Assembly (NCBI GenBank): GCA_021793675.1
Contig: JAJYSG010000006.1
Coordinates: 1-62,274, forward strand
Direction of reading: 5' to 3'
From: Actinomycetes bacterium
GTDB taxonomy: Bacteria; Actinomycetota; Actinomycetes; Actinomycetales; Cellulomonadaceae
Length of the DNA stretch: 62,274 nt
In this document: in pieces, positions 463-30,661 of the stretch
How the letters are laid out: every line of letters begins with the position of its first letter
Numbering within the stretch: the stretch's first letter is position 1
Program-made: the position numbers and the translations under genes
The notes under the pieces: generated by a model
What the model was told of the DNA's origin: nothing
Database searches by the model: none
Seen by the model: the letters and a program-made list of their open reading frames with translations, nothing else

Positions 463-489
463 CCATCGGCCGCGCGCGGGCGTTCCTGA
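463..489 (-). promoter_or_regulatory. Sigma-28-type promoter of cheA
   Basis: The transcript strand reads TCAG, 15 bases, then GCCGATGG. This is the sigma-28 layout TAAA-N15-GCCGATAA with an actinobacterial -35. The same pattern occurs at six other flagellar promoters in this window. The predicted start is near base 455, giving a leader of about 37 bases. Confidence 0.7.
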
Positions 490-509
490 GGACTCGAACG
501 GGTGGTGGG

Positions 510-782
510 TCAGTCCTGGGACGGCGTCGAGGCCGGCTCGTCGCCGGTCGCCGGGGGCCCGGTGAGCAGCTGCCGCAACGCGGTGGCGGTGCCCTCGTCG
601 GCCGCGGCGGCCTCGGCGTTCGCGGATCGCACCGCGTCCAGCACCTCGGCGCGGTGGATCCGCACGGACCGCGGGGCGTCGATGCCGAGCCGCACGCCGT
701 CGCCGCGCACCTCGATCACGGTGAGCACGATGTCGCCGCCGATGACCAGCTGCTCCCCGACGCGACGACTGAGCACGAGCAT
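510..782 (-). CDS. csrA: Carbon storage / translational regulator CsrA
   Basis: This 90-residue protein starts MLVLSRRVGEQLVIG and contains VRLGIDAPRSVRIHR, both diagnostic of CsrA. It has a charged, alanine-rich tail of about 30 residues beyond the usual 60-residue core. CsrA is a dimeric RNA-binding protein that blocks translation by binding GGA motifs in leaders. In other bacteria with FliW it represses flagellin synthesis until FliW sequesters it. Here csrA follows flhF at the end of the fliM-flhF operon, fliW is in the same locus, and GGA hairpins occur in several flagellar leaders. The ATG start fits the family start exactly. Confidence 0.95.
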   Translation of the reverse strand: MLVLSRRVGEQLVIGGDIVLTVIEVRGDGVRLGIDAPRSVRIHRAEVLDAVRSANAEAAAADEGTATALRQLLTGPPATGDEPASTPSQD

Positions 783-849
783 GGTCCGGACAGTACAGCC
801 CCCGCCCGCGGGACCGCCGGTCCCGGCAACGTCGCGGTCGTCCGCGCGG

Positions 850-1968
850 TCAGGCGCGGTGCCGCAGCGCCGCGTCGACGCTCTGCCCGAGCACGCTCGC
901 CCACAGCGCGCGCGATGCGGGGATGCCGTCCGCCCACGCCACCGGCAGCCCCAGGCCGAGCACGGTGCCCGGGTCGGCCGTGTCCAGCAGCCCGAGCACC
1001 GCGAGGGCGTCCGGACGCCGCGCGCCACCCACCTGCTCCAGCCACCGGGCCGCGTCGGCCGCCTTGGTGCGGGCGTCCACGACGGCCCACACCGCGTCCG
1101 GCTGCGCGGCCGCGACCAGCCCGGACGCCAGCAGCCGGCCGGTCGGGTCGTCCGTGACGCCGACGACGAGGACCCATGGGTGCGGCGCCTGGCCGCTGCG
1201 GACCCGCCAGCGGACCACCGCGGCACCCGACGTCAGGCCCTCGTCGCCGGCCGCCACGACGGCGCCCTCCGGCAGGTCCCAGCGGAGCCGCAGCAGCCCG
1301 GCGGTGGCGGTCGCGGCCTGCGGCGGGCCGACCACGACGAGCACCTGTCCCGGCTGGCGCGGGGCGTCCGGTGGCTGCGGGATGCGCTCGAGCACCTCGG
1401 CGACCGAGCCGGCGCGGTCGAGCAGCTCCGCCGGCACGCCCGCGGCGAGCAGCGCGACCGCGGACCGGCCCCAGGAGGGCTCGGCGCCGGGCGGGTCGGA
1501 CGCCGGCACGACGACGGCGGACCGCGACGCGGGCGAGGTGCCGGGCGCCCCGGTGCCGGGCGTCGCGGTGAGCGCGCCGGCGACGTCGCCCCGGCAATCC
1601 GGTGCGGCCGGCCGGGCGGCGGCGTCGCCCGCGAGCGCCCGGACGCCTTCGAGCACCGCGGCGAACCGGGCGCCCGCCGTCGAGACCGCAGGCTCCGGGA
1701 CGCCCCGCCCGGACGCCTCCGCGCGGTCCGCCGCGTCCATGAGGGCCTCGAGCGGGTCCGCCGCCGGGATCGTCGTCCGGGACGGTGCGCGTGGCCGGTC
1801 GGGCACCTCGACCGTCAGCTCGTAGTGCTCCCGCGCGAAGAACCCCGCCACCCCGCCGTGGCGCACCCGCTCGGCCCGCACGATCGTCGCGCGGGGGCCG
1901 AGCTCCTCGCGCACCCGGCTCATCAGCTCGGGCAGGTCCTCACCCTCGAGCAGCAACAGCTCGGGCAC
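850..1968 (-). CDS. flhF: FlhF-like protein with a degenerate GTPase domain
   Basis: The gene starts 28 bases inside the end of flhA, the usual place for flhF. The first 60 residues (MPELLLLEGEDLPELMSRV... with EELGPRATIV) match the FlhF N-terminal segment. A low-complexity linker follows, then a C-terminal alpha/beta domain. True FlhF is an SRP-type GTPase that helps place flagella, but here the P-loop position reads VVVGPPQAATATAG and has no GK(S/T). The other GTPase motifs are also unrecognisable. It is therefore probably a non-hydrolysing relative, possibly structural or regulatory. The family assignment rests on synteny and the N-terminus. Length is 372 residues. Confidence 0.7.
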   Translation of the reverse strand: MPELLLLEGEDLPELMSRVREELGPRATIVRAERVRHGGVAGFFAREHYELTVEVPDRPRAPSRTTIPAADPLEALMDAADRAEASGRGVPEPAVSTAGARFAAVLEGVRALAGDAAARPAAPDCRGDVAGALTATPGTGAPGTSPASRSAVVVPASDPPGAEPSWGRSAVALLAAGVPAELLDRAGSVAEVLERIPQPPDAPRQPGQVLVVVGPPQAATATAGLLRLRWDLPEGAVVAAGDEGLTSGAAVVRWRVRSGQAPHPWVLVVGVTDDPTGRLLASGLVAAAQPDAVWAVVDARTKAADAARWLEQVGGARRPDALAVLGLLDTADPGTVLGLGLPVAWADGIPASRALWASVLGQSVDAALRHRA

Positions 1969-4000
1969 CGCCGATCACCCCCGACGTCACGATGGTGGCC
2001 CCGGCGTCCGCGATCTCCGGGTACGAGATCACCGGCAGCCGCGGCAGGCCGAGCGCGACGAGCCGGCGCAGCGCCGGCCGGATCGCCGGTGCGCACACCA
2101 GCACCACGGTGTGCCCGTCGGCCTCGGCCCGGGTGACCCCCTCGCGCAGGTCCGCGAGCAGCCGGTCGACGACCACCGGGTCGAGGGACAGCTGTGTGCC
2201 CTGCTCGCGGGCCCGCAGCGACTCCGCGGCCTGCTGCTCGAGCATCGGGTCGAGCGTGAGCACCCGCAGCTGGCCGTCCTCCACGTGCGGCGCCAGCAGC
2301 GCCGGGCCGAGCGCGGCGCGGGCGGCCTCCACGAGCCCCTCGGGGTCGGTGGACACCCGCGCGCGCAGCGACAGCGCCTCGTAGATCCGGGACAGGTCGC
2401 GGATCGCCACACCCTCGGCCAGCAGCCCCTGCAGCACGCGCTGCACCTCGCCGAGCGACAGCAGCGACGGGACGAGCTCCTCGACCACCGAGGGGTTCGC
2501 CCGCTTGACGGCCTCGGTGAGCAGCCGCACGTCCTCGCGGCCGAGCAGCCGGGCCGCGTGCTGCGCCACCAGCGCGCCCAGGTGGGTGACCAGGACGGAG
2601 ACGCGGTCGACGACGGTGGCGCCGGACATCTCGGCGGCATGCCGCAGCTCGGCGGGCACCCACCGTCCCGGCAGCCCGAACACCGGCTCGTTGACCGGCG
2701 TGCCGGGCAGCCCGGACAGGTCGTCGCCGAGCGCGAGCACCTGGCCGCGCGGCGCCTGACCGCGGCCCACCTCGACACCGGCGATCCGCACCACGTACGT
2801 GGCGCGCGGCAGGTCGACCGAGTCGCGCGTGCGCACCGGCGGCACGACGATGCCCAGCTCCATCGCGGTCTTGCGCCGCAGCGACCGGACCCGTCCCAGC
2901 AGGTCCTCCTCCGGCCCGGTGCCGACGAGGTCGACCAGGTCGGGCGCCAGCAGGATCTCCAGCGTCGGGACGCGCATCTGCTCGATGAGCTGGTCCGGGG
3001 TGTCCGGCGCCGGTTCGGGGGGCGCCGCCTTCGCCGTGCCGGCCGTGGCCGCCTCCGCCGCGCGGCGGGCGGTCACCCGCTGCGCCACCAGCAGCAGCGC
3101 GGCGCCGACCAGGATGAACGGCAGCTTCGGCATGCCCGGCAGCAGCGCCAGGCCGATGACGCCGGAGCCGGCGATGCGCAGCGCGGTGACCGACTGCAGC
3201 AGCTGGTTGGCGGCGGCCGTGCCCATGTCGCCGTCGGCGCTCGCGCGCGTCACGACGATGCCGGTGGACACCGACAGCAGCAGCGCCGGGATCTGGGTGA
3301 CGAGGCCGTCGCCCACGGACAGCAGGCTGAACCGCTGCAGCGACTCGCCCGCGGTCATCTTCATCTGGAGCATGCCGATGACGAAGCCGCCGGCGAGGTT
3401 GATGACCGTGATGATGATGCCGGCGATGGCGTCGCCCTTGACGAACTTGGACCCGCCGTCCATGGCCCCGTAGAAGTCGGCCTCGGCCGCGACGTCCTGC
3501 CGACGGCGGCGCGCGGTGTCCTCGTCGATGAGACCGGAGTTGAGGTCGGCGTCGATCGCCATCTGCTTGCCGGGCATCGCGTCGAGCGTGAACCGGGCGC
3601 CGACCTCGGCGACGCGGCCGGCGCCGTTGGTGATGACCACGAACTGGATGACCACGAGGATGAGGAAGATCACCAGGCCGATGACCAGCGAGCCGCCCAC
3701 CACGAAGTGGCCGAACGCGTCGATGACGTGACCGGCGTAGCCGTCCCGCAGCACGAGCCGTGTCGAGGCGACGTTGAGCCCCAGCCGGAACAGCGTGAAC
3801 ACCAGGATGAGCGACGGGAACACCGAGAAGTCCAGCGGCCGGCGGACGTACATGCTGGTCAGCAGGATGACCAGCGAGGCCGTGATGTTCACCGCGATGA
3901 GCAGGTCGAGCAGCGCCGCGGGCAGCGGCACGACGAGCAGCAGCACGATGCCGACGACGCCGATCGGCACCGCCATCGCGGAGATGTCCTTGTTCTTCAC
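1940..4000 (-). CDS. flhA: Flagellar type III export gate protein FlhA
   Basis: FlhA forms the nonameric ring of the flagellar export gate. At 686 residues it is full length. The N-terminal third has about eight membrane helices starting at AVPIGVVGIVLLLVVPLP. The FHIPEP-type signature follows (ALDAMPGKQMAIDADLNSG, then DFYGAMDGGSKFVKGD), and then the large cytoplasmic domain. I chose the GTG at 3998-4000. It overlaps the flhB stop by four bases and has an AAGGAGA ribosome site. The next in-frame ATG is seven codons inside. The gene belongs to the fliM-csrA operon. Confidence 0.96.
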   Translation of the reverse strand: MKNKDISAMAVPIGVVGIVLLLVVPLPAALLDLLIAVNITASLVILLTSMYVRRPLDFSVFPSLILVFTLFRLGLNVASTRLVLRDGYAGHVIDAFGHFVVGGSLVIGLVIFLILVVIQFVVITNGAGRVAEVGARFTLDAMPGKQMAIDADLNSGLIDEDTARRRRQDVAAEADFYGAMDGGSKFVKGDAIAGIIITVINLAGGFVIGMLQMKMTAGESLQRFSLLSVGDGLVTQIPALLLSVSTGIVVTRASADGDMGTAAANQLLQSVTALRIAGSGVIGLALLPGMPKLPFILVGAALLLVAQRVTARRAAEAATAGTAKAAPPEPAPDTPDQLIEQMRVPTLEILLAPDLVDLVGTGPEEDLLGRVRSLRRKTAMELGIVVPPVRTRDSVDLPRATYVVRIAGVEVGRGQAPRGQVLALGDDLSGLPGTPVNEPVFGLPGRWVPAELRHAAEMSGATVVDRVSVLVTHLGALVAQHAARLLGREDVRLLTEAVKRANPSVVEELVPSLLSLGEVQRVLQGLLAEGVAIRDLSRIYEALSLRARVSTDPEGLVEAARAALGPALLAPHVEDGQLRVLTLDPMLEQQAAESLRAREQGTQLSLDPVVVDRLLADLREGVTRAEADGHTVVLVCAPAIRPALRRLVALGLPRLPVISYPEIADAGATIVTSGVIGGARAVAARG

Positions 4001-5187
4001 GGGGTCTCCTTCGCGGCCGGGGTGCGGGCCGGACGACGGGTGCGGGCGGCCGCCCGGGCGGCGGCCCGCCCGGCGGCGCGGTGGTCGGTGGTGTCGCCGG
4101 CCGGCAGCGCGGAGCCGCCGGGGACGCGGTGCTGGCCGGCGGCCGCGCCACGCCGCCGCAGCGCCATGACGAACGCGAGCACGCGGGCCACCGCGGTGAA
4201 CAGGTACTCGGGGATCTCGCTGCCGACCTCGCACGCGGCGTGCAGCGCGCGCGCCAGCGGCACGTCCTCGACGAGCGGCACGTGGTGCTCGGCGGCGCGC
4301 GCCCGGATGGTCGCGGCCAGCGCGCCGGCGCCCTTGGCCACCACGCGCGGCGCGCCCCGGCCGGGCTCGTAGCGCAGCGCCACCGCGACGTGGGTCGGGT
4401 TGACCAGCACGACGTCGGCCTCGGCGACCGCCGCCATCATGCGGTTGCGGGAGATCTGCTGCTGCCGGCCCCGGATCGCGGCCTTCACGTGCGGGTCGCC
4501 CTCGGAGCGCTTGTTCTCCTCCTTGACCTCGCGCAGCGTCATCCGGGTCTGCTTGCGGTTGCGCCGCAGCACCACCACGAGGTCGACCACGGACAGCAGC
4601 AGGCCGGCGACGATCCCGGTGCGCAGCAGGCTCGTCGCGCCGCCGCCCCCGACGGACAGCACCGCGGACAGCGGCAGCCGGCCGGACGCCAGCAGCGTCG
4701 GGGTCAGCCCGCGCACGGTGACGTACATCACCAGCCCCACGGCCGCGGTCTTGAGCAGCACCTTCGCGCCCTGCCACCACGCCTGCGCGCCGACCAGCCG
4801 GCGGACCCCGGTCAGCGGGTTGAACTGCTGCGGCTGCGGCTTGAACGAGCGCAGGTGCACGCCGCCCTGCGCGGCGGCGACCGCGACGACGGCCACCACG
4901 GTGACGGCGAACATCGGCAGCATCGCCGACAGCCCCGCGCGCAGGGCGTCGAACAGCACCCGCACCGCGGCCGCCGGGTCCGGCCGGCGCGCCAGGTCGG
5001 CGAGCGCGGCGAGGGGCGCGGTGGCGCCCTGCCGGGCCCGCGCGGCCACCGCCGGCAGCGTGAGCGCCGCGGCACCCAGCCCCACCCATGCCTGCAGGTC
5101 CTGCGACCGGCCGAGGCGGCCCTGACGGCGGACGTCCTTGAGTCGGCGGTCGGAGGCCTTGAACGTCCGTTCCTGCGCGTCGCTCAC
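3997..5187 (-). CDS. flhB: Flagellar export switch protein FlhB
   Basis: FlhB controls the switch of the export apparatus from rod/hook to filament substrates by cleaving itself in an NPTH loop. The motif is present at residues 263-266 (VVLVNPTHVAVALRYEP). Four membrane segments precede it, and residues 1-30 have the typical basic start (ERTFKASDRRLKDVRRQGRLGRS). The tail of about 45 residues is alanine- and arginine-rich. The 396-residue product starts at a GTG that overlaps the fliR stop by four bases, and its own stop overlaps flhA by four bases, so translation is likely coupled. Confidence 0.96.
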   Translation of the reverse strand: MSDAQERTFKASDRRLKDVRRQGRLGRSQDLQAWVGLGAAALTLPAVAARARQGATAPLAALADLARRPDPAAAVRVLFDALRAGLSAMLPMFAVTVVAVVAVAAAQGGVHLRSFKPQPQQFNPLTGVRRLVGAQAWWQGAKVLLKTAAVGLVMYVTVRGLTPTLLASGRLPLSAVLSVGGGGATSLLRTGIVAGLLLSVVDLVVVLRRNRKQTRMTLREVKEENKRSEGDPHVKAAIRGRQQQISRNRMMAAVAEADVVLVNPTHVAVALRYEPGRGAPRVVAKGAGALAATIRARAAEHHVPLVEDVPLARALHAACEVGSEIPEYLFTAVARVLAFVMALRRRGAAAGQHRVPGGSALPAGDTTDHRAAGRAAARAAARTRRPARTPAAKETP

Positions 5188-5951
5188 GGTCCCACCCCCT
5201 GCATGGCGTGCGAGGCGCCGCGCACCAGCCCGGCGACGACGCCCGGCAGCGTGAGGACCGCCATCCCGCCCAGCGAGATGGTGAGCAGGATCTTGATCGG
5301 GAAGCCCATCGCGAAGGCGTTGAGCGCCGGCGCGACCCGCGTCAGCAGCCCGAGCCCGACGTCGGCGAGGAACAGCACGACCAGCAGGGGCCCGGCGATC
5401 TGCAGCGCGGCCACCACCATCCCGGTCAGCCCCTGGGCCGCGGTGTGCGCCAGCGCCGCGGCGTCCGGGGCGGTGCCCAGCGGCAGCGCGTCGAACGACC
5501 GCACCAGCCCGGCGAGCACCACCTGGTGCCCACCGGACACGACGAGCAGCGCGAGCGCGAGCCACTGGTACAGCCGCGAGAAGGTCGCGCCGTTCGTCAG
5601 CGACAGCGGGTCGAACGCGCTCGCCATCTGGAAGCCGCCGAACAGGTCGATGAAGCTGCCCGCCGACTCCACCGCGGCGAACACCAGGGCGACGAGGAAG
5701 CCCAGCGCGGCACCGACGACCGCCTGCAGCACGAGGTCGACGAGGAACGCGCCGGTGGCGTCGGGCGGCGCGGTCCCCAGCCGCGGCTGCACCGCCAGCG
5801 CCAGGCTCACCGCGAGCAGCGCCTTGACCTGGCCGGGGATCGCCTTGTGGGCGAACGGCGGCGCCAGGAACAGGAACGCCGCGATGCGCACGCCGGCGAG
5901 CATGGTCGTGGTGACCGCACCGAGCGGCAGCGTCACGGAGACCGGCCCCAC
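5184..5951 (-). CDS. fliR: Flagellar export gate protein FliR
   Basis: The 255-residue product has six or so hydrophobic segments and FliR features such as ESAGSFIDLFGGFQMASAFDP and LNAFAMGFPIKILLTISLGG. FliR forms the export channel core together with FliP and FliQ in the basal-body membrane patch. It starts with GTG three bases after the fliQ stop and overlaps flhB by four bases at its end. Confidence 0.95.
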   Translation of the reverse strand: MGPVSVTLPLGAVTTTMLAGVRIAAFLFLAPPFAHKAIPGQVKALLAVSLALAVQPRLGTAPPDATGAFLVDLVLQAVVGAALGFLVALVFAAVESAGSFIDLFGGFQMASAFDPLSLTNGATFSRLYQWLALALLVVSGGHQVVLAGLVRSFDALPLGTAPDAAALAHTAAQGLTGMVVAALQIAGPLLVVLFLADVGLGLLTRVAPALNAFAMGFPIKILLTISLGGMAVLTLPGVVAGLVRGASHAMQGVGP

Positions 5952-5954
5952 GGC

Positions 5955-6227
5955 TCAGCCCCCGAGGAGCGCGGGGATCCGCGCGTACAGGTCCGTGGTG
6001 AAGGAGATCAGCTCGCTGATCATCCAGTGCCCGCAGACGATGAGCGCCACGGCGGCGCCGACCGCCTTCGGCACGAAGCTCAGCGTCACCTCCTGGATCT
6101 GCGTCACCGACTGCACCAGGGAGACGACGAACCCGATGACGAGCGCGGTGACCAGCACCGGGGCGGCCAGCTTGGCGGCGAGGATGAGCGCCTGGACCGC
6201 GACGTCGAGGACGGCGTTGGTGTCCAT
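5955..6227 (-). CDS. fliQ: Flagellar export gate protein FliQ
   Basis: At 90 residues this matches the usual FliQ length. It has two membrane helices (residues about 16-40 and 55-75) and the family stretch SLVQSVTQIQEVTLSFVPK. FliQ wraps around the FliP/FliR channel in the export gate. Its ATG shares one base with the fliP stop (TGATG), and fliR follows after three bases, as in most fliPQR clusters. Confidence 0.96.
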   Translation of the reverse strand: MDTNAVLDVAVQALILAAKLAAPVLVTALVIGFVVSLVQSVTQIQEVTLSFVPKAVGAAVALIVCGHWMISELISFTTDLYARIPALLGG

Positions 6228-7153
6228 CAGCCCGCCCCGGTGTAGGAGCCGACGAGCGCCGTGATGACCAGTCCCCAGCCGTCGACCAGCACGAACAGCA
6301 GGATCTTGAACGGCAGGGACACCATGACGGGCGGCAGCATCATCATGCCCATCGCCATGAGGCTCGAGGAGACCACGAGGTCGACCACGAGGAACGGCAC
6401 GAAGATGACGAAGCCCATGATGAACGCCGAGCGCAGCTCGCTGAGGATGAACGCCGGCACGAGCGTGGTGAACGGGGTGGCGGCCGGCGTGGCGGGGTTC
6501 TCCTGGCCGCCGGCCCGGGTGATGAGCGCGATGTCCTGCTCGCGGGTGTGCGCCAGCATGAAGTCCTCGACCGGCACCCGCCCCGCGTCCACCGCCTGGC
6601 TGAACGTCACGTGCCCGTCCAGGTAGGGCTGCACCGCGTCGTCCTTGACGTGCGAGATCACCGGCGCCATGACGAACAGCGAGAGGAACAGCGCCAGTCC
6701 GGCGAGCACCTGGTTGGGCGGCACCGACTGCAGGCCCAGGGCGTTCCGGGTGAGCGACAGGACGACGAAGATCTTGGTGAAGCTCGTCGTCATGATGAGG
6801 GCCGCCGGGGCCACCGACAGCAGCGTGATGACCAGCAGCACGACGATCGACGAGCTGGGCGTGCCGTTGACGCCGTTGATGCTCACGGTGACGCCGCCGG
6901 ACGCGGGGCTCGCCGGCGCGGTGGGCGTGGCCGGCGTGGCCGGCACGGCCGGTGGGGTCGGCGCCGTGCGCACGGGCGCCGCGACGACGGACGCGGCCGG
7001 CACGGTGCCGTCGGCGGTGGCCGGCGCCGCCGACGCGCTGCCGGCGCCGAGTAGCAGCCACACGGCGGCGAGGACGACGACGAGGAGGGCGGGACGCCCG
7101 GCACGCTTCGTTCCGCGGGTACCCGTGGCGGCGGGTGCCGCGAGCGCGTTCAC
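6227..7153 (-). CDS. fliP: Flagellar export gate protein FliP
   Basis: FliP pentamers form the export pore. The core shows MTTSFTKIFVVLSLTRNALG, PPNQVLAGLALFLSLFVMAPV and the C-terminal SLPFKILLFVLVDGWGL. The N-terminus is longer than usual for FliP. It has a signal-anchor (about residues 20-42, ending SASA) followed by a proline/alanine/threonine-rich stretch of about 45 residues before the core. The start is GTG at 7151-7153, ten bases after GGAGG. The length is 308 residues against about 250 in enterobacteria. Confidence 0.95.
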   Translation of the reverse strand: MNALAAPAATGTRGTKRAGRPALLVVVLAAVWLLLGAGSASAAPATADGTVPAASVVAAPVRTAPTPPAVPATPATPTAPASPASGGVTVSINGVNGTPSSSIVVLLVITLLSVAPAALIMTTSFTKIFVVLSLTRNALGLQSVPPNQVLAGLALFLSLFVMAPVISHVKDDAVQPYLDGHVTFSQAVDAGRVPVEDFMLAHTREQDIALITRAGGQENPATPAATPFTTLVPAFILSELRSAFIMGFVIFVPFLVVDLVVSSSLMAMGMMMLPPVMVSLPFKILLFVLVDGWGLVITALVGSYTGAG

Positions 7154-7160
7154 CGCACGC

Positions 7161-7640
7161 TCACCTCCGGACCGTCCGGTCCTGCCAGGCGCGGACCGTG
7201 GCGTGCCACGTCTGCGGTGACAGGACGGATCCGGCCAGCAGGCCGGGCCGGCGGTTGGCCGGTGTCCCGGCGGGCCCGGCCAGCCCTGGCTGGGCGGGGC
7301 CGCGTGGGGTCGGCACGCGTGGGGTCGGCACCTGCGGGGCGACCGCGGGCGTGGCCGATCGTGCGGCCGCCGGCTGCTGCGGCAGCGCCGGGACCGGCCG
7401 CAGCTCGGTGATGAGGTGCACACCGGCGTCGGCGAACCCGACGAGCAGCCGCCGGTCGCCGGCCGCGATGACGGCCACCCCGGCGTGCTTGGACAGCGCG
7501 TGGCGGTCGAGCACCCGCACGTCGGCCTCGCGGGAGGAGTCGTGGCCACGGCCGCCCAGGCGGCGCGCCAGGTACCAGACGAGCGCGACGACGACCGCGA
7601 GCGAGACGATCACCCGCAGCGCGACGACGAGCCCCTCCAT
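7161..7640 (-). CDS. fliO: Flagellar biosynthesis protein FliO
   Basis: The 159-residue product has a single N-terminal membrane helix (VVALRVIVSLAVVVALVWYLARR) and a small cytoplasmic domain with VLDRHALSKHAGVAVIAAGDRRLLVGF. This is the FliO pattern of a heme-oxygenase-unrelated, FliP-chaperoning membrane protein. The proline-rich C-terminal half is not conserved. It sits between fliN and fliP as expected, with a TGATG overlap to fliN. Confidence 0.85.
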   Translation of the reverse strand: MEGLVVALRVIVSLAVVVALVWYLARRLGGRGHDSSREADVRVLDRHALSKHAGVAVIAAGDRRLLVGFADAGVHLITELRPVPALPQQPAAARSATPAVAPQVPTPRVPTPRGPAQPGLAGPAGTPANRRPGLLAGSVLSPQTWHATVRAWQDRTVRR

Positions 7641-9325: not shown

Positions 9326-9350
9326 GCGAAATCATCGGGTGCAGTAGCGG

Positions 9351-22272: not shown

Positions 22273-22407
22273 GCCGTTGTGCGCACCTCACCGGCGCTAT
22301 CACCCGATGGGACGAGGCCAATCCGGACAACGCCTGACACTCCGGCCGTCGGGACGCCCGCCCGGCGTCACCCCGGCGGCGTGGCGAGGACGACGACGGC
22401 CCGGGAC

Positions 22408-22430: not shown

Positions 22431-22432
22431 CG

Positions 22433-22756: not shown

Positions 22757-22763
22757 GGCGGTC

Positions 22764-23183
22764 TCAGGCCACACCGAGCACGCCGGCGAGCGCTTCCGCA
22801 CCCGGCTCGGCGCTGTGGCCCACCTCGTCCGCGGCCTCGTGCCACGCCAGGGCCAGCGGTTCCAGCAGCCCCCGGCACGACGCCACCCGCGCCACGTCAC
22901 CGGTGGCCCCGGCCTCGAAGAGCTCCCGCAGCACGAAGGCGTAGATCGACATCAGGGCGCCCGCGCCGTCCCACGCATGCACGTCGAGCATGCCGATGAG
23001 CTCGCCGACGATCTCCTCGGCGTGCCCGACGAACGGCGCCGCGGTGGCCCGGTCGCCGTCCTGCAGCGCGTTCCCGGCGCGCGTCAGGTCGAGGACCAGC
23101 CGGTCGAACAGCATGGTGAGCAGCCGCGGTGGGCTCGCCGTCGCGATCGCGTCGGCCAGGTAGCGGGAGCGGGCGTCGTCCAC
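22764..23183 (-). CDS. fliS: Flagellin export chaperone FliS
   Basis: FliS binds flagellin before export. The 139-residue product shows the family pattern YLADAIATASPPRLLTMLFDRLVLDLTRA, followed by GELIGMLD and YAFVLRELFEA. The GTG start has a GGAAGG ribosome site seven bases upstream and follows fliD by 14 bases. In Bacillus FliS also helps FliW-CsrA regulation, which is relevant to this locus. Confidence 0.93.
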   Translation of the reverse strand: MDDARSRYLADAIATASPPRLLTMLFDRLVLDLTRAGNALQDGDRATAAPFVGHAEEIVGELIGMLDVHAWDGAGALMSIYAFVLRELFEAGATGDVARVASCRGLLEPLALAWHEAADEVGHSAEPGAEALAGVLGVA

Positions 23184-23197
23184 GAGGGTGCCTTCCG

Positions 23198-24619
23198 TCA
23201 GGAGGACTTCACGGAGCTCGACGAGCTCGAGGTGCTCGTCGTCGACAGCGACCCGAGCACCGAGGTGAGGTAGGAGGACTGCGACTGCAGCTGCGACAGC
23301 GACGTCTCCATCGCGGAGTACTGCTGCTCGAGCGACTGCTGGCGCAGCTGCAGCTGGACGGCCCAGTCGGAGATCTGGTTGCCGAGGTCCTGCACGGTGC
23401 TCTGCTGCAGCGCGATGTTGGACGTGAGGAGCCCCTGGGTGGGGTCCGAGTACGTGGTGGCCACCGACTGCACGCGCTGCGCGATCGCGCTGACGACCGC
23501 CTGGGTCTGTACCGGGTCGGCCTGGAGCGAGGCCGCGAACGCCTTCTGGTCGAACGTGAAGGTGCCGTCGCTGTTGACGACGATGCCCACCGACGAGGGC
23601 GAGACGAGCTCTCCGTTGTACGTCACCGCGCCCGCGCCCGCGTCCGAGACGGCGTTCTGCAGGAACATCACGTCGCTCTCGTTGCCGAGGATCCCCGGCG
23701 TCATGTTCGTCGTCCCGTCGGCGGCCGTCGTCGTCGTCGACGCGGTCTGGCTCGTGATCTCGCCCAGCACCAGGTTGAGCTGCCCGACGAGGTCCGAGCC
23801 GAGCTTCGTCAGCGCGGTGTCGTCGCGCGACGTGGAGACGGTGACGTTCGACGTCGTCGGCTGGCTCACCGTGAAGGTGAGCCCGGGCAGCACGCCCGTG
23901 AACGTGTTGGTGGCCGAGGTGACGGTCGACGCGGCCGACGTGCCGTCCGGGTTCGTCGCGCCCGGCCACAGCGTGATCTGCGCGTCGCGGGCGGCGACCG
24001 CCGAGACGACGCCCGTCGTCACCATCGTCCCGGTGCCGTCGTTGGCCGTGACGGAGGTCTGGAACGCGCCGGCGGCCCCGGAGGTCTTGGCGGTGAGCTG
24101 CAGCTGGTAGCCGCCGCTGACCTGGACGGCCACCGCGTTGACGCCGGCCGCGGACCCGTTGATGGCCTGCGCGATGGCGTCCGCCGACGTCAGACCGTTG
24201 GTGGACACCGTCGTCGTGGCGTTGTTGGCCCCGGTGAACGTCATGCTGCCGTTGCCCAGCAGCAGGTCGGCGACGGACGTGCTCGACACGAGCGACACCT
24301 GGGTCTGCGCGGTCTGGTTGACCGCGAACGTGATGGCGGCCGGGTCGCCGGTGGAGGTCGCGGTCGCGGTGACCGAGGAGTCCGACGAGGACGCGGTGAG
24401 CGCCTGCCAGCTCGAGGCGGTGGCCGCCGTGGTGGCGGCGTCGCCGAGCGAGCCGACCTTGGTGTTGAGCGACTGCAGCGCGGTGATGAGGTTCTGGGTG
24501 GCCGTCTGCTTCTGCTGCAGCAGCTGCTGGGGCTGCGACTCGATCTGCATCAGCTGGCTGATGATGCTCGTCGTGTCCAGGCCGCTGACCAGACCGCTGA
24601 TGCTCTGCGTCCCTGACAT
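23198..24619 (-). CDS. fliD: Flagellar filament cap protein FliD
   Basis: FliD caps the filament and guides flagellin folding. The N-terminal motif SISGLVSGLDTTSIISQLMQIE is diagnostic, and the C-terminal coiled coil includes QLQLRQQSLEQQYSAMETSLSQLQSQSSYL. The 473-residue length is normal. The serine/threonine-rich tail is not conserved. It starts with ATG and GGAGGAACG upstream. No sigma-28 site was found before it; a terminator pair of fliC lies upstream. Confidence 0.95.
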   Translation of the reverse strand: MSGTQSISGLVSGLDTTSIISQLMQIESQPQQLLQQKQTATQNLITALQSLNTKVGSLGDAATTAATASSWQALTASSSDSSVTATATSTGDPAAITFAVNQTAQTQVSLVSSTSVADLLLGNGSMTFTGANNATTTVSTNGLTSADAIAQAINGSAAGVNAVAVQVSGGYQLQLTAKTSGAAGAFQTSVTANDGTGTMVTTGVVSAVAARDAQITLWPGATNPDGTSAASTVTSATNTFTGVLPGLTFTVSQPTTSNVTVSTSRDDTALTKLGSDLVGQLNLVLGEITSQTASTTTTAADGTTNMTPGILGNESDVMFLQNAVSDAGAGAVTYNGELVSPSSVGIVVNSDGTFTFDQKAFAASLQADPVQTQAVVSAIAQRVQSVATTYSDPTQGLLTSNIALQQSTVQDLGNQISDWAVQLQLRQQSLEQQYSAMETSLSQLQSQSSYLTSVLGSLSTTSTSSSSSSVKSS

Positions 24620-24670
24620 CTCGTTCCTCCCGGGGTCACGCTGCGGCCGGCGGCTGCCGGGTGGTGCTGG

Positions 24671-24709
24671 GGCACCGGCGGCGCGCGGGGACGGCGCGCC
24701 GCCGGTGCC
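24671..24709 (-). terminator. Strong hairpin between fliC and fliD
   Basis: A perfect 16-base-pair stem (GGCACCGGCGGCGCGC and its complement) surrounds a seven-base loop. It lies 82 bases after the fliC stop and 52 before fliD. Confidence 0.7.
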
Positions 24710-24759
24710 AGGCCCAGGGCTCCGACTGGGTGGGGTCGGGGTTGCTGCCCAGGGATGTC

Positions 24760-24780
24760 GGCCGTGGACGTGCCACGGCC
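24760..24780 (-). terminator. First hairpin after fliC
   Basis: GGCCGTGG and CCACGGCC pair around ACGTG, ten bases after the fliC stop. With the larger hairpin downstream this makes a tandem terminator, fitting a very highly expressed gene. Confidence 0.6.
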
Positions 24781-24790
24781 GGGGTCAGGC

Positions 24791-25954
24791 CTAGCCGAGC
24801 AGCTTGAGGATGCTCTGCGGCATCGAGTTGGCCTGGGCCAGCATCGCGGTGCCTGCCTGCTGCAGGATCTGGGCCCGGGTGAACTTGACCATCTCGGACG
24901 CCATGTCGGTGTCCTGGATCTGGCTGTTCGACGCCGTGAGGTTCTCCACCGCGACGTTGACCGCGTTGATCGTGTGCGTGAACCGGTTCTGGTACGCACC
25001 GAGGTCGGCCCGCTGGGTCGAGATCTGCTGGATCGAGTTCTGGATGGTCGTGATCGTCGCCTGCGCCGCGGTGTGCGACGAGAAGTCGATGTGCCCGTAG
25101 GTGTCGGCGGCGCCCGCACCGACGCCACCGGTGACCGCGGTGGTCGTCACGGCGCCACCGTTGAGGGCGTGGACGTCGAGGCCGGTCGCCGCGCCGGTCG
25201 AGTCGGTGACGACGCTCGCCGTGAAGCCCGCCGAGAAGGTGGAGTCCGCGTTGAGCGCGGCGGCCACCGACTGGACGGTCGCGCCCGTGGTGCCGGTGGG
25301 CATGTTCACGGCGGCGGTCGTCGTGCCGCCGCCCGCCAGGGTGCTCGTGAAGGTGACGCTGCCGGCGGTGAAGCTGGCCGCCTGGGTGTCGGTCATGGCG
25401 ATCGTCGAACCCGTGCCGCTGGCGACCTTCAGGCTGGTGGCCAGGTTGACGACGTTGAGCTGCGACATGTCGACGGCGATGTTGCTGTTCGACGTGCCGT
25501 CGGCGCCGACCTGGAAGTTGAGCGTGCCGGCGGAGCCGTCCAGCAGGTTGGTGCCGTTGAAGTTCGTCGACTTGCCGATGCGGCCGAGCTCGGAGACGAG
25601 CTGGTTCGCCTCGGTCGCGATGTCGCCGCGGGCGGCGCTGTTGTTCGAGTCGTTGGCCGCCTGGACGGCCAGGTCGTTGAGGCGCTGGAGCACCGAGTGG
25701 ACCTCGGTGAGGGCACCCTCAGCGGTCTGCACGACGTTGATGCCGTCCTGGGCGTTGCGCGCAGCCTGCGTGAGGCCCCCGATCTGCGACTGCAGGCCCT
25801 GCGAGATGGCCAGGCCGGCCGCGTCGTCGGCGGCCCGGTTGATCCGGTAGCCGGACGACAGCTTCTCGAGCGAGCTCGACAGCGACGCCTGCGTGTTGGA
25901 GAGGTTCCGGTACGCGTTCAGCGCCGCGAGGTTGGTGTTGACGGTGAGACCCAT
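24791..25954 (-). CDS. fliC: Flagellin FliC
   Basis: This is the filament subunit. The conserved N-terminal D0/D1 region (MGLTVNTNLAALNAYRNL, then LSSGYRINRAADDAAGLAIS) and the C-terminal one (QNRFTHTINAVNVAVENLTASNSQIQDTDMASEMV, QQAGTAMLAQAN) flank a short, variable, threonine/alanine-rich centre. The product has 387 residues. The ribosome site AAGGAGG is the best in the window. The gene has its own sigma-28 promoter, a leader hairpin with GGA in the loop, and tandem terminators. Only one flagellin gene is visible. Confidence 0.97.
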   Translation of the reverse strand: MGLTVNTNLAALNAYRNLSNTQASLSSSLEKLSSGYRINRAADDAAGLAISQGLQSQIGGLTQAARNAQDGINVVQTAEGALTEVHSVLQRLNDLAVQAANDSNNSAARGDIATEANQLVSELGRIGKSTNFNGTNLLDGSAGTLNFQVGADGTSNSNIAVDMSQLNVVNLATSLKVASGTGSTIAMTDTQAASFTAGSVTFTSTLAGGGTTTAAVNMPTGTTGATVQSVAAALNADSTFSAGFTASVVTDSTGAATGLDVHALNGGAVTTTAVTGGVGAGAADTYGHIDFSSHTAAQATITTIQNSIQQISTQRADLGAYQNRFTHTINAVNVAVENLTASNSQIQDTDMASEMVKFTRAQILQQAGTAMLAQANSMPQSILKLLG

Positions 25955-26010: not shown

Positions 26011-26037
26011 TCATCGCCCGGGCCGGCCGGCATCTGA
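26011..26037 (-). promoter_or_regulatory. Sigma-28-type promoter of fliC
   Basis: The transcript strand reads TCAG-N15-GGCGATGA, with one mismatch to the GCCGAT core. The predicted start near base 26003 gives a leader of about 49 bases that begins just before the GGA hairpin. Confidence 0.66.
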
Positions 26038-26070
26038 GGAGTTCTTCCCGGCAGATCCGCACCGTCCCGA

Positions 26071-26949
26071 TCAGGCGGTCGCCCGCCCCCGGCGCGCGTC
26101 CGCCACGGCCGCGACGATCGCGCGCGGTCGCGGCACCTCGTCGGCCGGCCCGTGGCTGGCGGCGGGCATCGACGCGCGGGCCGCCACGGCGGCGAAGTAG
26201 GCACGCCGGCGCCGCTCCGCGACGCCGGCCGGACGGGTGGCTGTCGGCACCAGGTCAGGGTCGAGCGCGGCGTTCATGCCGTCGCGCAGCATGGTGAGCG
26301 CCTCCGTCCGCAGCTGGCTGATCCGCGACTCGGTCACGCCGAGCTCGGCCGCCAGGTCGGCGATCGACCGGTCCTCGAGGTAGAGGCCGACGACGACGGC
26401 GCGCAGCCGCTCCGGGAGCGTCACCACGGCGGCCCGCAGCCAGTGCACGCGTTCGTTGCCGAGCATGAGGTCCTCGGGTGTCGCCCCGGGGTCCGGCAGG
26501 ACGTCGGCGAGCACCGAGCCGGGGGCGTCGAGGCGCAGCACGCGCCGTTCGGCGTCGAGGCGGGCGCCCTCCACGCCGGCCACGTCGGTGCCCATCGCCG
26601 CGGCGATCTCCTCGCGCCCGGGCTGGCGCCCCAGGCTCGCCCGCAGCTGGTCGCTGGCCGTGGTGTACTCCCGGACCCGCCGGCGGGCGCCGCGCGACGC
26701 CCAGTCGATGGAGCGCAGCTCGTCGAGGATGGCGCCCTTGATCCGCAGCGCGGCGTAGCGCGCGAACGGGACGCCCGACGTGGCGTCGTACGACCTGGCC
26801 GCGAGGACCAGCGCGAGACTTCCGGCAGACACCAGCTCGTCGCGGGTCACCGAGGGCGGCACCCGATGGAGCACCTCGCTGACGTGGTACCCGACGAGCG
26901 CGAGGTGGTCGACGACGAGCCGCTCCGTTGCGACCTGTGCTTCACCCAT
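26071..26949 (-). CDS. fliA: Flagellar RNA polymerase sigma factor FliA (sigma-28)
   Basis: Sigma region 2 is visible in LALVLAARSYDATSGVPFARYAALRIKGAILDELRSIDWASR, and region 4 in LPERLRAVVVGLYLEDRSIADLAAELGVTESRISQLRTEAL (key words RIKGAILDELR and VTESRISQLR). Both match FliA/WhiG-type factors. The product has 292 residues including an unusual basic tail of about 60 residues. The chosen ATG has no clear ribosome site, and upstream codons stay open for 30 residues, so the start is uncertain. It should read the seven TCAG-N15-GCCGAT promoters found here. No flgM anti-sigma gene was seen in the window. Confidence 0.93.
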   Translation of the reverse strand: MGEAQVATERLVVDHLALVGYHVSEVLHRVPPSVTRDELVSAGSLALVLAARSYDATSGVPFARYAALRIKGAILDELRSIDWASRGARRRVREYTTASDQLRASLGRQPGREEIAAAMGTDVAGVEGARLDAERRVLRLDAPGSVLADVLPDPGATPEDLMLGNERVHWLRAAVVTLPERLRAVVVGLYLEDRSIADLAAELGVTESRISQLRTEALTMLRDGMNAALDPDLVPTATRPAGVAERRRRAYFAAVAARASMPAASHGPADEVPRPRAIVAAVADARRGRATA

Positions 26950-27101
26950 GGGGTGCTCGTCGTCCGGCGGCGCGCTCCGCTTGAGCCAGAAAGCGATTTC
27001 TCCTCGGGTTCCGACCCATCCGACGAATCGGACGAGCAACCATCAAGCACGCCGGGCGAATCGCCCACCGTGGGGCGCGCTCGACATCTCGCCCGGCCAG
27101 A

Positions 27102-27117
27102 TGTGAGAAATATCACA
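27102..27117. promoter_or_regulatory. Crp-type operator
   Basis: TGTGA-GAAATA-TCACA is a perfect match to the Crp/GlxR consensus TGTGA-N6-TCACA and the most AT-rich spot in the region. It lies about 150 bases before fliA and 120 before the flgN promoter start. It suggests that cAMP or a Crp-family regulator controls entry into motility gene expression. Confidence 0.62.
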
Positions 27118-27202
27118 CTCTCGAGGGCGTCGCGCGACCAGCGGCGGACACCCGTCCGAGTGACGCATTCCGGTGGTCGCCACGACAGACTCGCCCGTTG
27201 GG

Positions 27203-27229
27203 TCAAGTCCGGGCCTCGGCGTCCGATAG
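27203..27229 (+). promoter_or_regulatory. Sigma-28-type promoter of flgN-flgK-flgL-fliW
   Basis: The sequence reads TCAA-N15-TCCGATAG, the only site with TCAA in the -35 box. The predicted start is near base 27237, 58 bases before the flgN ATG. Confidence 0.68.
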
Positions 27230-27294: not shown

Positions 27295-27777
27295 ATGACC
27301 CTGAACAGCCTGTCCGAGGCGCTCTGGCACGAACGCCGGCTCCTCGAGCTGCTCCTGTTCAAGCTCGAGGAGGAGCAGCTCGTGCTCACCTCGGGCCGCA
27401 GCCGCTGGCTCGCCCAGGCGACCCGGGAGGTGGAGTCGGTGCTGGACGAGATCCGCTCGGCCGAGATCGCGCGCGCGGTCGAGGTCGAGGACGTCGCCGC
27501 AGGCCTCGGCCTGACCGGGAACGCCTCGCTGGCGCAGCTGGCCGCCGTGGCGCCCGCGCCCTGGGACGAGCTGCTGCGCTCCCACCGGGACGCCTTCGCG
27601 TCCATCACGGCGGAGATCGGCCACATGGCGGAGGACAACCGCGAGCTGCTCGCGATGTCCCACCGCGCCACGCAGGAGACGCTCGCGTCGCTCGAGGACA
27701 GCGTGCGCACCTACGACGAGACCGGCCAGCAGCGCGCCGAGGTCCCCGGCGCGCAGCTGATCGACCGGTCGATCTGA
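27295..27777 (+). CDS. flgN: FlgN-type chaperone for hook-filament junction proteins
   Basis: The 160-residue, helix-rich protein (LNSLSEALWHERRLLELLLFKLEEEQLVLTSG, given as its key N-terminal pattern WHERRLLELLLFKLEEEQ) has the size and coiled-coil character of FlgN and lies 11 bases before flgK. FlgN binds FlgK and FlgL before export. The start ATG has GAGAGGAA upstream. Assignment depends mainly on context, since FlgN proteins vary greatly. Confidence 0.8.
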   Translation: MTLNSLSEALWHERRLLELLLFKLEEEQLVLTSGRSRWLAQATREVESVLDEIRSAEIARAVEVEDVAAGLGLTGNASLAQLAAVAPAPWDELLRSHRDAFASITAEIGHMAEDNRELLAMSHRATQETLASLEDSVRTYDETGQQRAEVPGAQLIDRSI

Positions 27778-27788
27778 ACGGGGCGACG

Positions 27789-29285
27789 ATGAGCAGCACC
27801 TTCTCCGGCATCAGCACCGCGCTCTCGTCGCTCATCGCCCAGCGCACCGCGCTGGACGTCGCGGGCCAGAACATCGCGAACGCCAACACGCCCGGCTACA
27901 CGCGCCAGCGCGCCGACCTCGGCGCAGTCACCGGCTCCCAGGTGCCCTCGATGTTCGCGACGAGCGACGGCGTCGGCACCGGCGTCCAGGTCACCGGGAT
28001 CTCGCGGGCCTCCGACCCGTTCCTCGACGCCAAGCTGCGCACCCAGACGTCGGGCGCCGCGACGCTCGCCGCCCTGTCCGGCGCCTACTCCACGCTCGAG
28101 TCCGGCCTCGGCGAGCCGGGCGGCTCCGGGCTGTCCGCCCAGCTGCAGACGTTCTGGAACGCGTGGCACGACGTGTCCAACGCCCCGGACACCGGCTCCA
28201 CCCGCTCCGTGCTGCTCGACGACGGGCGCCAGCTGGTCGACACGCTCCACACCCAGTACACGAACATCGCCACGCAGTGGAGCGACGCCCGCACCACGAC
28301 GTCGAGCCTCGTCGACCAGACGAACGCGCTCGCCACGAACGTCGCGGACCTCAACCAGCGCATCCTCGACATCACCAACAACGGGGGCAGCGCCAACGAG
28401 CTCGCCGACCAGCGCGACCAGGCCCTGACGCAGCTCGCCGGCCTCGTCGGCGCGACCGTGCAGAGCCGGCAGGACGGCCAGGTGGACGTCTACGTCGGCG
28501 GGAACGCTCTCGTGTTCGGCGCCTCGTCGCGCGCGCTGGCCCTCGGGGGCGCGCAGGTGTTCAGCCAGGCCGCGGGATACGCGACCGACGGCACGCCGAC
28601 CACCCCCCAGGACGTCCACCTCGAGTGGGCCGACACGCCGGGCCAGCGCGTCGTTCCCACGGGCGGCACGGTCGCCGGGCAGCTCATGGTGCTCGCGCCG
28701 GCAGCCGCGGACGGCTCCGGCACCGGCGGGGTGCTCGCCGAGGCCGCCCAGCGGCTCGACCAGGTCGCCACCCGGCTGGCGACCGACGTCAACACGCTGC
28801 ACGCCGGGGCGCAGACCGTCGCCGGCAGCAACGGCGGCGCGTTCTTCACCCCGCTCGACCCGAGCGACCCGACCTGGACGAGCGGTCCGACGCACGGCCC
28901 GGCCGCGCTGCAGATCTCCGTCGCACTGACGACGGCCGACCAGGTCGCGGTCGCCGCCCCCGGCGCGGGCGCGTACGACGCGTCGATCGGCCAGCAGATC
29001 GCCGCCCTCGGCACCTCCACCACGGGCGCCGACGCCGTGTGGAGCCAGGCGGTCGTCGAGATCGGCAACCGCAGCGCCGCGGCGGCGTCCCGCAGCTCGG
29101 TCGCCGAGTCCGCGCGGGCCTCGGCCGAGCAGGACCAGCTCGGCAACGCGAGCGTCGACACCGACCAGGAGACCGTGGGGATGATCGCGACGCAGCGCTC
29201 CTACCAGGCCGCCGCGCGCGTGCTCACCACGCTCGACGACATGCTCGACACTCTCATCAACAAGACCGGCCTGGTCGGGAGGTGA
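27789..29285 (+). CDS. flgK: Hook-filament junction protein FlgK
   Basis: The first 40 residues carry the rod/hook signature (FSGISTALSSLIAQRTALDVAGQNIANANTPGYTRQ, key words DVAGQNIANANTPGYTRQ). The end is the paired helix QETVGMIATQRSYQAAARVLTTLDDMLDTL. The 498-residue length fits FlgK. It is followed five bases later by flgL. There is no obvious strong ribosome site before the ATG (ACGGGGCGACG). Confidence 0.95.
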   Translation: MSSTFSGISTALSSLIAQRTALDVAGQNIANANTPGYTRQRADLGAVTGSQVPSMFATSDGVGTGVQVTGISRASDPFLDAKLRTQTSGAATLAALSGAYSTLESGLGEPGGSGLSAQLQTFWNAWHDVSNAPDTGSTRSVLLDDGRQLVDTLHTQYTNIATQWSDARTTTSSLVDQTNALATNVADLNQRILDITNNGGSANELADQRDQALTQLAGLVGATVQSRQDGQVDVYVGGNALVFGASSRALALGGAQVFSQAAGYATDGTPTTPQDVHLEWADTPGQRVVPTGGTVAGQLMVLAPAAADGSGTGGVLAEAAQRLDQVATRLATDVNTLHAGAQTVAGSNGGAFFTPLDPSDPTWTSGPTHGPAALQISVALTTADQVAVAAPGAGAYDASIGQQIAALGTSTTGADAVWSQAVVEIGNRSAAAASRSSVAESARASAEQDQLGNASVDTDQETVGMIATQRSYQAAARVLTTLDDMLDTLINKTGLVGR

Positions 29286-29290
29286 CGACG

Positions 29291-30211
29291 ATGCTCCAAC
29301 GCGTGACCAACGAGACCATCCAGCGCTCCACGCTGCGCAACCTGCAGACCAACCTGTCCGCGGTCGCCCGGTTGCAGGCGGAGATGTCGAGCGGCAAGCG
29401 GATCCAGGTGCCCTCGGACGACCCGTCGGGCACCGGCCAGTCGCTCAGCCTGAACGCCACGGCGAGCCAGCTCGCCCAGTACCAGCGCAACGGGCAGGAC
29501 GGCGACTCCTGGCTCACCACGGTGGACACCGCGCTGACCACCGCGCTCGGCTACCTGCGCAACGCGCGCGACCTCGTCGTGCAGAGCGGTGACGCCGGCC
29601 TCGGGCAGACCTCGCGCGACGCGCTCGCCGACGGCATCGACGGCCTCAAGGCCGGCCTGCTCACCCAGGCCAACGCCCGCTACCAGGGACGCAACGTGTT
29701 CGCCGGCACGTCGGACGCCCCGGCCGCGTTCACGGTGAGCACCAGCGGCAGCACCCCGGCGTACACCTGGACCGGCTCGACGACCGGGAGCGTGGACCGC
29801 AAGATCGGTCCCTCGACGTCCGTGCGGGTCGACACCGACGGCTCGCAGGCGTTCGGCTGGACGGACCCCAGCACCGGGACGCAGTCCACGGCGTTCGCGC
29901 TGCTCGACAAGATCTCGACGGGGCTGCGCAACGGCAGCAGCGTCACGGGCACGCTCAACGACCTCGACTCCGTCATGCAGTCCATGCTCACGGCCGCCGC
30001 GTCCAACGGCAGCCGGCAGAAGGTGCTGGAGAACACCATGTCGGACGTCTCGTCGCAGCAGCTGACCATCAAGGGACAGCTCAGCGGTGTCGAGGACGTC
30101 GACATGGCGTCGGTCATCATGAACCTGCAGATGCAGCAGGTCACCTACCAGGGCGCCCTGGCGGCCGGCGCCCGGGTGCTGCAGCCCACGCTCCTGGACT
30201 TCCTGCGGTGA
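29291..30211 (+). CDS. flgL: Hook-filament junction protein FlgL
   Basis: FlgL is flagellin-like. The N-terminus RVTNETIQRSTLRNLQTNL, LQAEMSSGKRIQVPSDDPSGTG and the C-terminus VDMASVIMNLQMQQVTYQGALAAGARVLQPTLLDFL are typical. The product has 306 residues. The stop overlaps the fliW start by four bases. Confidence 0.95.
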   Translation: MLQRVTNETIQRSTLRNLQTNLSAVARLQAEMSSGKRIQVPSDDPSGTGQSLSLNATASQLAQYQRNGQDGDSWLTTVDTALTTALGYLRNARDLVVQSGDAGLGQTSRDALADGIDGLKAGLLTQANARYQGRNVFAGTSDAPAAFTVSTSGSTPAYTWTGSTTGSVDRKIGPSTSVRVDTDGSQAFGWTDPSTGTQSTAFALLDKISTGLRNGSSVTGTLNDLDSVMQSMLTAAASNGSRQKVLENTMSDVSSQQLTIKGQLSGVEDVDMASVIMNLQMQQVTYQGALAAGARVLQPTLLDFLR

Positions 30212-30630
30212 GCGGCACGGCGACCGCGGGGACGTGCCTCGTCGCCACCCCGGACGGACCTGTCGAGGTGCCGGACCGGCTGGTGCTGGTGGAGCCGCTG
30301 CCGGGCCTGCCCGGCACCGAGTACGCGCTCGACGCGCTCGACGAGGTCGGCTTCCTGTTCGCGCTGCGCGGCGAGGGTGGCGTGCGGCTGTTCGTCGTCA
30401 GCCCGGGCCTGGTCTTCCCCGACTACGCGCCCCGCATCGGGCGCCCGGTGCTCGAGGCGGTCGGCGACGGGGATCCCGCCGTGCTGCTCGTCGTCGTGCA
30501 CCCCGGGTCGGACGGCCGGCCCGTGCCCACCGCCGACCTGCTGGCCCCGATCGTCGTGGGCCCCGGCACCGGCCGGGCCCTGCAGGTGGTGCTCGACGAG
30601 GACCTGCCGCTGCGGGCCGCGCTCGCCTGA
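30208..30630 (+). CDS. fliW: Flagellar assembly factor FliW (CsrA antagonist)
   Basis: At 140 residues it is close to the FliW length and shows the family pattern LPGLPGTEYALDALDEVGFLFALRGEGGVRLFVVSP and FPDYAPRIG. FliW binds either flagellin or CsrA. When flagellin is used up, free FliW removes CsrA from the flagellin mRNA. The gene is coupled to flgL by a GTGA overlap, while csrA lies at the far end of the locus. Confidence 0.92.
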   Translation: MSGTATAGTCLVATPDGPVEVPDRLVLVEPLPGLPGTEYALDALDEVGFLFALRGEGGVRLFVVSPGLVFPDYAPRIGRPVLEAVGDGDPAVLLVVVHPGSDGRPVPTADLLAPIVVGPGTGRALQVVLDEDLPLRAALA

Positions 30631-30634
30631 CGTC

Positions 30635-30661
30635 TCAGTTCCGCCGCGCCCCGGCCGATGG
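30635..30661 (+). promoter_or_regulatory. Sigma-28-type promoter of the HDOD gene
   Basis: TCAG-N15-GCCGATGG begins five bases after the fliW stop. The -10 box ends six bases before the ATG of the next gene, so the start of transcription should coincide with the start codon. Confidence 0.7.

Follow-up and report, generated by a model that had tools for sequence, protein, structure and literature searches.

One promoter-like element before basal-body and filament genes of a Cellulomonadaceae flagellar cluster: a probable FliA-type regulon and a possible CRP operator before fliA

Whether the basal body and the filament of an actinobacterial flagellum are expressed from separate classes of promoter, or from one, is the question raised by a flagellar gene cluster on a stretch of 62,274 nucleotides (contig JAJYSG010000006.1 of assembly GCA_021793675.1; hereafter the window) from a member of the Cellulomonadaceae. 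Seven promoter-like sites of a single kind stand before genes of this cluster, and an earlier reading of the DNA letters (hereafter the sequence-only reading) had taken them for sigma-28-type promoters shared by basal-body and filament genes. The window has a G+C content of 74%, and its source assembly amounts to 1.87 Mb at 62% completeness; the nearest named records to its FliG are from Cellulomonas, with identity of up to 76%. Genes were called from codon use and key genes were named via Pfam and NCBIfam, the remaining window genes being named from gene order and recall. Comparison was made with flagellar clusters from 15 other genomes of the order, in most of which gene order is nearly the same as in the window; with 79 genomes of the order, 31 of which (the window's own genome counted in) have an FlgK match; and with a wider set of 80 named loci, non-actinobacterial loci being included in the denominators.

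The seven sites had been described as copies of TCAR-N15-KSCGAT with exactly 15 bases between the boxes, directed towards cheA, fliM, flbD, flgB, fliC, flgN and an HDOD gene. All seven are present where they had been placed (Table 1), five on the minus and two on the plus strand, with that spacing, in intergenic gaps, and oriented towards those genes. The -35 box, given as TCAG, proved one base too short, since the conserved box is CTCA (six of seven sites); the full-length element is CTCA-N16-GCCGAT, with a spacer of 16 in every case. The -10 letters are GCCGAT in four sites, TCCGAT in two and GGCGAT in one, followed by GG, GA, AG or CA and in none of the seven by AA. Sigma-28 promoters have a 15-base spacing, and at this register, 15 bases from the -10 box, the window has TCAR and not TAAA. 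The claimed departure from TAAA stands for this lineage, but a clade comprising the Microbacteriaceae, Micrococcaceae and their kin has CTAA or CTTA in the same register.

The pattern TCAR-N15-KSCGAT occurs seven times in the window, against a mean of 0.51 and a largest count of 3 in 100 dinucleotide shuffles. The shuffle counts were set aside as the main test, being partly circular (the sites themselves had supplied the pattern), and a matrix from the relatives was used instead, retrained on the regions before cheA, fliM, flbD, flgB, fliC and flgN (the target genes) in the 15 other clusters, with the window excluded and the HDOD gene kept out of training. By this matrix the seven sites rank first in the window, at 17.8-23.5 bits; the eighth-ranked match scores 14.5 bits, and the best match in the reversed window 14.3 bits. 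All seven are wholly intergenic, whereas a 25-base stretch placed anywhere in the first 31.9 kb would be so in 3.7% of cases. Across the assembly, TCAR-N15-KSCGAT has 49 matches, 42 of them beyond the window, as against 4 for the reversed pattern. The longer form CTCA-N16-KSCGAT, which misses the flgN site of the window, has 23 (reversed, 3): six in the window and 17 elsewhere.

The sequence-only reading had made much depend on whether the motif is as frequent inside genes as before motility genes, and here the outcome is divided. Within the window, all six CTCA-form matches are intergenic, and each is followed by a gene after 9-101 bp; outside it, 15 of the 17 lie inside genes and the remaining two, though intergenic, have no called gene downstream. 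In another genome of the order (G060, 4.5 Mb), 30 of 55 CTCA matches were examined: 14 of them fall between genes, eight of these 14 with a called gene downstream, namely flbD, fliM and genes for an MCP, a GGDEF, a PilZ, an aldolase, a hydrolase and an Imm_superinfect/DUF2510 protein. Because most matches outside the window are intragenic, the motif alone is unspecific; it is position together with conservation that gives specificity.

Many flagellated actinobacteria have the element before the same genes, essentially at a single spacing. Among 72 target regions of the 15 relatives, CTCA-N16-GCCGAW is found in 25, whereas the same boxes occur at N17 in four, at N15 in none, and at any other spacer from 8 to 25 in none or one; of 331 non-target genes in those clusters, two have the motif at N16 and one each at N15 and N17. 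In the 80 named loci, with a threshold of 15 bits, sites are found before flgB (34 of 74), fliC (24/39), flgN (22/37), flbD (21/37) and fliM (21/31), though before neither of two cheA genes; flgL follows with 7/39, then fliI (1/74), fliS (1/46) and flgK (1/44), and no site of at least 15 bits precedes any other gene in these loci. A relaxed motif is present in 99 of 185 actinobacterial and one of 35 other target regions, the split having been made by record title. One record, L164, titled Vibrio cholerae 35D (WNZI01000007.1), has a flagellar cluster of actinobacterial appearance, its sites being of the CTAA/CTTA type, and was put with the actinobacterial loci; it is probably mislabelled or contaminated. 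A strict form, CTCA-N16-GCCGATRG, averages 4.10 matches per genome in the 31 flagellated genomes of the order and 1.33 in the 48 others (one-sided P 1e-7), while its reversed control averages 1.10 and 0.94 (P 0.19).

Which sigma factor, then, would read these sites? The obvious candidate is encoded inside the flagellar cluster. It has sigma regions 2, 3 and 4 and matches the FliA/WhiG model TIGR02479 over positions 1-223 of 224 (E 2.4e-45), and it is called FliA-type here because its score of 155 bits falls below the NCBI cut-off of 189.6. Three FliA/WhiG-like matches occur in the assembly, of which this is the best; among the matches listed, the next scores 113.6 bits and lies in a 466-residue open frame. 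That the seven sites are promoters read by this cluster-encoded sigma factor is, on the sequence comparisons, very probable. Three observations favour it: sites are kept in genomes without a canonical WhiG, the two kinds of sigma factor form separate clades, and the -35 box changes together with the recognition helix. Thus four genomes (G017, G041, G013 and G063) have flagella and sites (the last three as CTTA/CTAA) but no WhiG above the cut-off; a tree of 53 proteins separates 10 canonical WhiG from 43 cluster-type sigmas with support of 100/100 and a long-branch warning; and in the CTAA/CTTA clade the recognition helix has THSA(V/I)SQQ, or SQT/SQM, instead of T(E/Q/R)SR(I/V/A)SQ(L/M).

A number of findings nevertheless tell against this assignment. 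Besides the mainly intragenic matches elsewhere in the genome and the sub-threshold score of the sigma factor, the exact N15-17 motif is missing from 43 of the 72 target regions of the relatives, and the figure of 63 of 72 exceeding 9 bits requires a matrix that was itself retrained on these regions. One flagellated genome without WhiG (G069) shows hardly any trace of the sites. The border between the sigma types is not clean, since the cluster-type sigmas of G023 and G078 also just pass the cut-off; and the -35 box and the recognition helix changed jointly for the most part just once, within a single clade, with one locus (L121) departing from the rule.

It could also be supposed that the cluster sigma has a narrower task, and that some or all sites are read by a canonical WhiG paralogue with its gene elsewhere. 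A FliA/WhiG sigma above the cut-off is found in 29 of the 79 genomes, 24 of these 29 being flagellated and G060 among them, and the incomplete assembly of the window may conceal one. (A FliA_WhiG match of any strength is uninformative as a genome marker, 78 of the 79 genomes having one.) Moreover, a second motif, GCTCAAG-N15-GCCGA, is overrepresented only in genomes that combine WhiG with flagella: the 24 genomes of this kind have 12.9 matches each on average (reversed, 5.0), as compared with 2.8 (2.0) in the five with WhiG only and 5.6 (5.6) in seven with flagella only. This is suggestive of a promoter class of WhiG's own, though confounded by family; by genome counts, the excess was noted in G007, G014, G043, G048, G059 and G064. 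Against the paralogue as reader of the seven sites stand the sites kept in genomes that lack WhiG, and the lack of any excess in the five genomes with WhiG but without FlgK, which have 0-2 strict matches each; we consider it improbable. Two fixed boxes at one spacing could equally form the operator of a DNA-binding regulator, in which case the sites would not be promoters. This we find scarcely credible: the sites are directional, with a single orientation to the gene, they have the sigma-28 -10 core and register, neither of their two boxes repeats the other, and start mapping in Actinoplanes reportedly found the same class as promoters.

In that work on Actinoplanes missouriensis, by Jang and colleagues in 2016, 11 mapped starts are said to share CTCA(N15-17)GCCGAA, and one sigma factor is said to have been proposed for the whole flagellar cluster. 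Measured against CTCA(N15-17)GCCGA(A/T), four of the seven window sites agree exactly, with final T, two differ by one letter and one by two. Nine Actinoplanes or Paractinoplanes loci were inspected: CTCAGCG-N16-GCCGAA precedes flgB in seven (eight if GCCGAT is allowed) and CTCA-N17-GCCGA(A/T) precedes fliC in seven, while flgN has GCCGAC and the exact motif in none; none of these nine loci yielded fliM, flbD or fliA. The two systems are alike in having CTCA and GCCGA boxes before flagellar operons, with one sigma proposed; the window differs in T as the sixth -10 base and in a spacer of 16 in all seven sites. Passages of PMC8325347 have Actinoplanes flagellar genes directed by WhiG-like flagellar sigmas, and a passage of PMC13293333 gives A. 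missouriensis three FliA-family sigmas. The one-sigma flagellar layout is therefore not new, having already been reported for Actinoplanes; what genome comparison adds is its extension beyond a zoospore former, across many further families of actinobacteria. For Rubrobacter radiotolerans, a passage of PMC8325347 gives the WhiG promoter consensus as TAAA / GCCGATAA: the -10 core is the same as in the window, which has TCAR at the position of TAAA (CTCA in the full box), and the promoters serve type IV pili there and flagella here.

The same element stands before basal-body runs (flgB, fliM, flbD-motAB) and filament runs (fliC, flgN-flgK), and, except for fliA, each flagellar gene run in the window has one of the seven sites at its head. 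The shared sigma factor that the sequence-only reading proposed for basal-body and filament genes is well supported at the level of sequence, the same element being in the same places in relatives. We infer that the gene runs are operons, and that the FliA-type sigma with RNA polymerase would read the seven promoters, so that early genes (basal body, export, motor) and late genes (hook-filament, flagellin) would form a single regulatory tier, the commitment step being the making or freeing of FliA.

In the enterobacterial hierarchy, FlhDC leads to FliA and FlgM. The window resembles it in having a FliA-type sigma for filament and chemotaxis genes, but differs in that its basal-body genes carry the same sites and in that FlgM was found above the cut-off in none of the 79 genomes, 31 of them with FlgK; weak matches below the cut-off were seen in two (G025 and G035), and in a control of the search 4 of 14 genomes were positive, including E. 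coli and B. subtilis. The failure to find FlgM fits a single tier: a hook-completion checkpoint freeing FliA would hardly be workable, because FliA would itself be needed for hook building. Passages of PMC2587704, PMC4255298 and PMC10746217 agree with the absence of FlgM.

An early class might yet persist under dual control, with housekeeping promoters starting the basal-body runs and the sigma-28-like sites only boosting them. Several E. coli operons combine housekeeping promoters with a sigma-28 boost. Housekeeping promoters could be hidden in the G+C-rich upstream regions, which promoter fires first cannot be read from sequence, and fliA itself needs a starter other than a strong sigma-28 site. 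Among the conserved elements ahead of flgB, flbD and fliM, however, the sigma-28-like site is the strongest, and it lies near the start codon; for fliM, 11 of 12 clusters have an in-frame GTG or ATG start 9-10 nt past the -10 box (window: 9291-9326), from which it follows that the fliM messages are probably leaderless. The start mapping in Actinoplanes, too, is said to have found a sigma-28-type element. Dual control seems unlikely, if still to be reckoned with.

A single tier shifts attention to fliA itself. No strong sigma-28 site precedes it in 14 relatives (exact motif) or in 27 named loci at 15 bits, and within 350 bp upstream the best matrix scores are 1.5-14.4 bits in the 14 relatives and 12.0 bits in the window. 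The latter belongs to a weak element resembling CTCAAG-N17-(G/A)CGA(C/G), which exceeds 12 bits in 11 of 42 fliA genes, always with a spacer of 17, as against 20 of 715 other non-target genes, four of these with that spacer; scoring at 12 bits ignores the last five positions. An ATG or GTG begins 9 nt past the box in all 11. Common 6-mers before fliA were no more numerous than in reversed sequences and were discarded.

Further upstream of fliA lies a perfect CRP-type palindrome, TGTGA-N6-TCACA. CRP and GlxR regulons are known from Mycobacterium and Corynebacterium, and in E. coli CRP acts at flhDC. The window shares with those regulons the palindrome and a CRP-family protein encoded in its genome, and differs from E. 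coli in that its putative operator precedes fliA itself. The protein aligns with 3mzh over residues 8-225 (E 1.9e-79); its best alignments are with 3mzh and 3d0s, nearly equalled by 4cyd and 3r6s, and the proteins behind these entries are M. tuberculosis CRP and Corynebacterium GlxR. A class III cyclase domain scores 26.9 bits in the genome of the window and 43.5 bits in G060. It is tempting to suggest that CRP/GlxR, acting at the operator before fliA, would control all the operons through FliA; this claim is separate from the sigma assignment, and we advance it only tentatively, as we do activation by CRP. For the Cellulomonas group we would likewise advance, with no more assurance, cAMP-CRP of GlxR type as the missing flagellar master regulator, acting at one fliA operator, whereupon FliA would fire all tiers with neither FlgM nor an early class, tempered by a sigma-28-like promoter of fliA that is leaderless and poor, though conserved. 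A CRP promoter of class II, which would have its -10 box at a set distance, was not adopted, the anchored sequences being indecisive.

The palindrome might instead be due to chance, serve flgN, or repress, and to these alternatives together we would give an even chance. It was spotted by eye in fliA upstream sequences and tested afterwards; it lies between divergent genes, so that flgN could be the target; it is missing from 33 of 42 fliA upstreams; and 0.62 sites with at most one mismatch are expected by chance per window of such composition. The CRP homologue scores 112 bits against an NCBI cut-off of 266, and no class III cyclase domain was found in G028 or G009. Yet with nine or ten of the ten palindrome letters, a gap of 6 occurs in 9 of the 42 fliA upstreams, the window counted (G060, four Cellulomonas, a Micrococcales record, a Georgenia and G028 being the others), as against 0-2 for other gaps and 3 of 1527 other genes. 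With eight letters, gap 6 hardly stands out (13 of 42, with 11 at gap 4 and 10 at gap 1). Exact sites are few, with four in the assembly and three in G060, one of them before fliA in each, and the distance to fliA varies little (160-209 bp).

A literature search found no CRP or GlxR at an actinobacterial fliA among titles and abstract openings, most subscription papers lying outside its reach. In the passages seen of the Kineococcus genome paper (PMC2587704), no known master regulator is reported in the motility island, and no flgM. CRP at fliA would offer a testable answer to how the programme starts, a point those passages leave open; if true, one gene would link swimming in this group to a cAMP signal.

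Table 1. Positions of the promoter-like sites, candidate regulatory features and gene runs in the window
Feature	Position	Strand	Remark
Site before cheA	463..490	-	CTCA-N16-GCCGAT; 23.5 bits
Site before fliM	9299..9326	-	23.4 bits; GTG start 9 nt past -10 box
Site before flbD-motA-motB-fliL	11961..11988	-	19.9 bits
Site before flgB and basal-body run	22246..22273	-	19.6 bits
Site before fliC	26011..26038	-	17.8 bits
Site before flgN-flgK-flgL-fliW	27202..27229	+	18.3 bits; GTCA replaces CTCA
Site before HDOD gene	30634..30661	+	17.9 bits; recurs in G060, 22.0 bits
FliA-type sigma gene, likely reader of the sites	26071..26949	-	Profile matches
Weak sigma-28-like element before fliA	26959..26985	-	Spacer 17; 9 nt before fliA start; 12.0 bits, by itself at noise level
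CRP-type palindrome TGTGA-N6-TCACA	27102..27117		Perfect match; centre 160 bp upstream of fliA
cheA, 5' part (Hpt domain)	2..418	-	Truncated by contig end
Run fliM to csrA (switch, export apparatus)	510..9291	-	
Run flbD, motA, motB, fliL	9351..11884	-	
Run flgB to flgE and VanY-like peptidase gene	12005..22168	-	
Run fliC, fliD, fliS and unnamed gene	22433..25954	-	
Run flgN, flgK, flgL, fliW	27295..30630	+	
HDOD gene, weak EAL match	30668..31915	+	Start ATG 30668 or GTG 30761

The alternative ATG of the HDOD gene is in frame and lies 8 bases past the -10 box, so its message may be leaderless like that of fliM, though not in G060. Both csrA (510-782) and fliW (30268-30630) are in the cluster, as expected for CsrA-FliW control of flagellin. 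An FlhF-like protein (850-1968) matches TIGR03499 over residues 8-77, at 33.7 bits and under the cut-off, and has no Pfam domain that could be found; a passage of PMC10746217 describes FlhF as missing from later actinobacterial classes. Beside fliS, a conserved protein of 107 residues (22433-22756), with no Pfam or NCBIfam match, is present in 11 of the 15 relatives' clusters and is perhaps a chaperone.

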